DNA of 64,000 nt from Desulfobacterales bacterium (GTDB taxonomy: Bacteria; Desulfobacterota; Desulfobacteria; Desulfobacterales; JAHEIW01), in assembly GCA_030066985.1 (NCBI GenBank), contig JASJAN010000019.1:1-64000 (forward strand), in the 5' to 3' direction. Positions 4,113 to 44,912 of the stretch are shown here, one piece after another. Positions within the stretch are counted from its first letter, which is position 1. Every line of letters begins with the position of its first letter. The notes beneath the pieces are model-generated. The model did no database searches. It had not been told where the DNA came from and saw nothing but the letters and a program-made list of their open reading frames with translations. The position numbers and the translations under genes are program-made.

Positions 4113-4727
4113 CTATAAGATGGTCAGTTGCTGCTGCATGAATGATTTCAGAACATGATACGGTTGCGCCCCGACCAGCATTTGCCCTTTTAGCAAAAAG
4201 GAGGGCACGGCCTTTACACCCGATCGGAACGCCCGTGCCCAATCACGGTCGACTGCCGCTTTAAAATCATTGGCTTCGAGCACCTGTCGCGCAACTGTGT
4301 CATCAAGTCCAACTGACTTTGCGATGTTGGCCAATATATTCATATCATACACATTGTGTCCCTCTGCAAAATAAGCACGGAAAACAGCATCATGAAAAGT
4401 GTCGCCCTTTCCTTGCTGCTCTGCCCATTTGCCCAGCTCCTGGGCCCGTCGACTGTTATAAGTCATCTGCCGCTCCCCAAAGGGTAGACGCAAGTCCTGC
4501 GCCACTTGTTTAAGATGGGAAAGCAATTGGGGGATGTCGATATTGCGCCCGGCAAATAAATCCTTGAGTGATCTTCCCTGCGGAGGGGTTTCTGGATGAA
4601 GAGGGAAAGCCAGCCATTTTACGGTTATTTGAAGCTCTTGCTTTAATTGTGCAACACGCCCGGTGATGAAATAACACCAGGGTCAGATATAGTCTGAAAA
4701 TATTTCCAGCACGGGCATAGATGGCAT
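4113..4727 (-). CDS. DsbA/FrnE-like thiol oxidoreductase, apparent selenoprotein (UPWC active site)
   Basis: Reading from ATG at 4727 gives SDYI, then an in-frame TGA (4683-4685), then PWCYFITGRV and an uninterrupted DsbA/FrnE-type thioredoxin-fold protein through KAVPSFLLKG to the stop at 4113: 204 residues with the TGA as residue 15. In relatives the sequence here is CPWC, so the TGA replaces exactly the nucleophilic cysteine of the CxxC site, giving UPWC. A strong AGGAGG ribosome site sits 4 bases before the ATG. A hairpin (7 bp, 9-base loop) begins 1 base after the TGA and is a candidate SECIS, though closer to the TGA than the E. coli example. The window carries tRNA-Sec. A conventional gene caller would annotate only the part after the TGA. 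Confidence 0.8.
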
Positions 4728-4770
4728 TCGGCCTCCTAATGGGCCAACAATTGCACCAGATGGCTATCAA

Positions 4771-44814: not shown

Positions 44815-44912
44815 GGAAGTGCGCAGCTGTCTGGTGAAGCTCCCGGACTTCAAATCCGGTGTGGGGCGCTAAAACCGTCCCGGGTGGGTTCGATTCCCAT
44901 GCACTTCCGCCA
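44815..44912 (+). tRNA. selC: tRNA-Sec (anticodon TCA)
   Basis: 98 bases including encoded CCA. Acceptor GGAAGTGC pairs with GCACTTCC (8 bp, as in bacterial tRNA-Sec), a long D stem, anticodon arm CCGGA-CTTCAAA-TCCGG with TCA at 44850-44852, long variable arm and T loop GTTCGATTC. The 8-bp acceptor, UCA anticodon and length are diagnostic. It decodes UGA as selenocysteine. selA, selB and selD are not in the window. Confidence 0.97.

Follow-up and report, generated by a model that had tools for sequence, protein, structure and literature searches.

An apparent stop codon close to the 5' end of a gene in the 64,000-nt stretch of Desulfobacterales DNA analysed here (the window) very probably encodes selenocysteine (Sec) in the active site of an enzyme that acts on disulfides. 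From sequence comparison and structure prediction we have little doubt that the locus would encode a cytoplasmic thiol-disulfide oxidoreductase of the FrnE type, with Sec as its nucleophile and a bacterial SECIS (bSECIS) element 13–33 nt behind the Sec codon (Table 1). The 204-residue reading frame is broken only once, by a TGA at codon 15, with 14 open codons 5' and 189 open codons 3' of it, with MPSMPVLEIFSDYI-U-PWCYF as the sequence at the active site (DYI-U-PWCYF immediately around Sec). A preliminary description of this DNA had placed a TGA at the first cysteine of a CPWC motif, with clean reading on both sides and an AGGAGG ahead of the ATG, all of which was found at the coordinates given; the strand had been left unstated, and the gene lies on the minus strand. 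As the in-frame TGA encodes Sec in this reading, standard annotation would truncate the gene, to about 137 residues according to the same description, and standard ORF calling indeed returned just a 137-aa ORF with a TTG start (4113–4526). Scanned loosely for TGA in redox-like contexts, the window gave 12 candidates, of which only the present one was compared with families and relatives.

Table 1. Features of the selenoprotein locus and of the tRNA-Sec gene in the window.
Feature	Position	Strand	Remarks	Basis
CDS, FrnE-type (DsbA superfamily) selenoprotein	4113–4727	minus	ATG at 4727, TAG at 4113–4115; 204 residues with TGA as Sec, plus TAG	
Shine-Dalgarno AGGAGG	4732–4737	minus	4 nt 5' of ATG	sequence
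Sec codon TGA	4683–4685	minus	residue 15, first position of UPWC active site	
Resolving Cys18 codon of UPWC	4674–4676	minus	sole cysteine codon in protein	
Pro175 codon (Val-Pro)	4203–4205	minus	invariant	conservation
bSECIS	4650–4670	minus	arms +13 to +20 (4670–4663) and +26 to +33 (4657–4650); loop CGGGC +21 to +25 (4662–4658)	
Proximal hairpin of the preliminary description	4656–4683	minus	minimum-energy fold; overlaps bSECIS	
tRNA-Sec, anticodon TCA	44815–44912	plus	sole above-threshold copy in genome	

Conservation of the TGA was followed at several taxonomic levels. A search of 58 related genomes at order level recovered full-length relatives with identities as low as about 30%; of the order-level relatives that align at ≥32% identity, all 26 have TGA in the same column, and Cys was found there in three relatives at about 19–29% identity. 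A scan of GTDB species genomes led to 80 loci, 79 of them readable at the site and all 79 with TGA, the readable relatives with TGA representing Desulfobacterota-type lineages; as this set overlaps partly with the 58 genomes, the counts are not all independent (79 distinct 39-mers of 104). Site-covering matches above 40% identity in a phylum sample of 297 genomes have one TGA, the nearest stop-free full-length matches in this sample lie at 35–37% identity, and no Cys form was detected in it above 37%. Of 175 aligned loci, 15 have TGC or TGT at the Sec column, and all of these are distant. The alignment proposed in the preliminary description thus gave U in this column in relatives and C in distant homologues. 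Within the genus, substitutions after the TGA are concentrated at third codon positions (34/26/81 by codon position against the closest relative, at 75% amino acid identity), indicating that the part downstream of the TGA is translated. A genuine stop codon or a sequencing or assembly error, leaving a pseudogene or a 137-aa product started at the downstream TTG, would agree with the output of standard ORF calling, but is highly improbable, as coding constraint flanks the TGA on both sides, a covarying hairpin follows it, and the TTG start would remove the first strand together with the active site. Recurrence of the identical TGA column in dozens of independent genomes excludes chance, and on this conservation stop codon, pseudogene and sequencing error were ruled out.

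The source genome is equipped for Sec incorporation. Absence of selA, selB or selD had been named beforehand as an argument against a selenoprotein; all three are present, above curated cut-offs, and the tRNA-Sec claimed for the window was found (Table 1). As selA occurs in 57 of the 58 genomes searched, its presence does not separate carriers of the gene from non-carriers. The selD gene, outside the window (G000:C48:37903-38817, L044), itself contains one in-frame TGA; SelD is commonly a Sec-containing protein. A second in-frame TGA at a UxxC site, likewise outside the window, lies in a gene for a thioredoxin_4/DsbA-type protein (G000:C2:179965-180360, L002; AVFDDFQ-U-KYCAGL), which is likely a further selenoprotein of the same genome. 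Reassignment of UGA is known from some bacteria, and the codon might in principle stand for a different residue, for instance Trp or Cys inserted by suppression. We regard this as very unlikely here and rejected it, since many of the orthologues use TGA as their ordinary stop codon; in addition, the genome holds the full Sec machinery, including the selD with its own TGA, a SECIS is present, and the Cys of distant homologues at the TGA column is the usual counterpart of Sec.

The preliminary description had noted a 7-bp hairpin beginning one base after the TGA and had named a conserved hairpin in homologues as support for its reading. A conserved hairpin does follow, but at +13 to +33 instead of from +1 (counting the first base 3' of the TGA as +1), and judged from its sequence conservation it is the bacterial SECIS, an assignment based on covariation, frozen synonymous sites, a geometry kept in a second subclade and its absence from Cys homologues. 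The stem usually includes an internal U.U at +17/+29 across relatives; for the seven other pairs, 96% of cells are paired in 50 distinct sequences and 22 cells are changed on both sides, with 0 of 500 shuffles reaching this or the pairing value and far fewer pairs in slid versions of the stem. At +18/+28 all 79 sequences have U-A, C-G or A-U, although +18 is a synonymous third position, and RNAalifold recovered six of the seven pairs unprompted. Synonymous sites are frozen within the hairpin when compared to the rest of the same genes, with Gly encoded by GGG in 68/73 cases versus 251/1017 elsewhere (p 7e-33) and similar results for Phe TTC (p 2e-29) and Arg CGT (p 3e-56), p-values which assume related sequences to be independent and therefore overstate the significance. 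In Cys homologues only 2–5 of 8 hairpin positions are paired. A second Sec subclade with the motif UPFCY[IV]GKG (L165-L167, L173, L174, L189-L193, L027 and L033) shows the same +13 to +20/+26 to +33 geometry with a different sequence and mostly 7–8 of 8 pairs. The published bSECIS model describes a loop of 3–9 nt with G in the first two positions, located 16–37 nt from the UGA, and a stem of 4–16 bp (PMC13188914); the CGGGC loop starts 20 nt after the UGA, inside this range, and the stem of relatives has 7–8 bp with one internal mismatch. With a median minimum free energy (MFE) of -3.3 kcal/mol over 79 sequences, the covarying stem is weaker than the -7.5 kcal/mol or lower asked for by the model (PMC13188914), a value that acts as a search filter and is no biochemical requirement. 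An Rfam search returned no matching family. The window sequence, alone among the 79, has a U.C mismatch at +14/+32 (a GCA instead of a GAA codon), which costs it one more pair, and the free part of its distal stem has an MFE of only -1.5 kcal/mol; as the stem is mismatched and weak, Sec insertion in the source organism could be of low efficiency.

The hairpin directly at the TGA exists as the minimum-energy fold of the window sequence (-12 kcal/mol, z -1.5; equally good folds in 14 of 200 shuffles), but it is not the structure preserved in evolution. Covariation of its pairs did not exceed that of shuffles, and the stem is disrupted in many relatives, with the +3/+23 pair broken in 13 of 50 sequences, which disfavours it as SECIS. 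That Sec is inserted but signalled by this proximal hairpin, or by both hairpins, would be in line with its stability, as the 45-nt region attains -12 kcal/mol only through it, the covarying distal stem, with which it would compete, surpasses it in stability in just 11 of 79 sequences, and the distal stem of the window is weak. A ribosome waiting at the UGA is, however, expected to cover the 5' arm of the proximal hairpin and to leave the distal stem free. Moreover, the bSECIS model, with its range of 16–37 nt from the UGA, does not accommodate the proximal loop, which starts at about 9 nt, but does accommodate the distal loop, which starts at 20 (PMC13188914). A role of the proximal hairpin therefore seems unlikely; probably it is not the SECIS, which we place at +13 to +33.

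Sequence and predicted fold both point to a member of the FrnE family. Pfam assigned the protein to DSBA (PF01323, 2e-33), and the closest solved sequence in phmmer was FrnE from Deinococcus radiodurans (E 2e-25). An AlphaFold2 model, calculated from 25 sequences with Cys replacing Sec, had a pLDDT of 94.8, and its top five PDB matches were all D. radiodurans FrnE with a TM of 0.89. PF01323 and the model agree in a DSBA-like thioredoxin domain with helical insertion, in which residue 15 immediately precedes a helix (16–32), as expected of a thioredoxin-fold nucleophile; UPWC is the Sec variant of the CP(W/F)C active site, and Pro175 is presumably the cis-Pro of the fold. Like the D. radiodurans protein (DR_0659; PDB 5cnw, 5co3, 5xwh), the window protein would have a cytoplasmic DsbA superfamily fold; no signal peptide is visible in its 204 residues, as had been noted before. 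Both share PWC in the active site and about 34% identity over the structural alignment, D. radiodurans FrnE having Cys where the window protein has Sec. The D. radiodurans enzyme also carries a C-terminal CXXXXC at 239–244 that aids regeneration (PMC8945050), which is absent from the window protein, where no Cys follows Cys18. This absence does not disqualify it as FrnE, since the motif occurs in many but not all members and is also missing in FrnE of D. maricopensis and S. roseofulvus (PMC8945050). NCBIfam gave no match above cut-off, the best being NF041057 with 37 bits (cut-off 190).

For actual Sec insertion, the redox direction, the partner and the physiological role we infer the following from these data. 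SelB and Sec-tRNA would recognise the bacterial SECIS hairpin 13–33 nt 3' of the UGA, and Sec would be placed at residue 15 in lieu of termination. The selenolate would then attack substrate disulfides (or selenyl or sulfenyl groups), and Cys18 would resolve the mixed selenosulfide. As Cys18 is the only Cys and CXXXXC is absent, recycling would have to rely on an external reductant, for example thioredoxin, thioredoxin reductase or a thiol of low molecular weight.

In a tree of 78 rows, calculated by a quick search with the active-site residue blanked and having many weak inner branches, the window gene falls into a clade with strong support that comprises 42 rows with Sec and a single Cys row on a long branch. 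Sec and Cys replace each other across the tree as a whole, and well supported branches require five or more such changes. L155 (G093:C95:235-825), the one Cys form within the UPWCYF clade, whose other members all have Sec, sits on a long branch and may reflect a conversion of Sec to Cys. Tentatively, Sec may be near-obligatory in a FrnE lineage within Desulfobacterota, and this lineage may do a selenium-dependent cytoplasmic job impossible for the Cys form, an idea suggested by the composition of the clade, by its having just one Cys in the active site and by the missing C-terminal recycling motif of the window protein. The upstream neighbour of the gene codes for a PilZ protein and the downstream one for an M48 CAAX-type peptidase, common to 5 and 11 of the 80 loci, respectively; being shared by a minority of relatives only, these neighbours reveal no pathway, and no broadly conserved neighbour pointing to one was found among the 80 loci. 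A function deduced from an operon or from neighbours was accordingly dropped.

DsbA-like/FrnE selenoproteins with UxxC have been on record since 2005, in the Sargasso Sea set (COG2761; PMC1088965), in bacterial genomes, among them Deltaproteobacteria (PMC1794560), the 'DsbA 1' selenoproteins of the GOS data (PMC2398784), and form 1 of the DsbA-like selenoprotein family (PF01323, UxxC) in a family table from 2026 (PMC13188914). A Sec-containing FrnE is also described from Mamiellophyceae algae (PMC6627142), likewise an FrnE oxidoreductase by its description, but encoded by a eukaryotic gene. The published form 1 family and the window gene have PF01323, UxxC, Sec substituting for the first Cys of the active site and a bacterial SECIS after the UGA in common, and judged by description no qualitative difference was found. 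The selenoprotein reading of the preliminary description is therefore supported, with the correction that the family was already known as a predicted selenoprotein family, of which the window gene is a new, probably unannotated member. The refinement over prior knowledge is that its Desulfobacterota clade is almost exclusively Sec. Standard annotation strips the gene and its numerous relatives of the active site, and for this reason a redox enzyme widespread in sulfate-reducing and syntrophic bacteria has probably been under-counted. The near absence of Cys forms and the existence of two SECIS sequences that share one geometry provide a compact test set for the retention of Sec in a thiol oxidoreductase.
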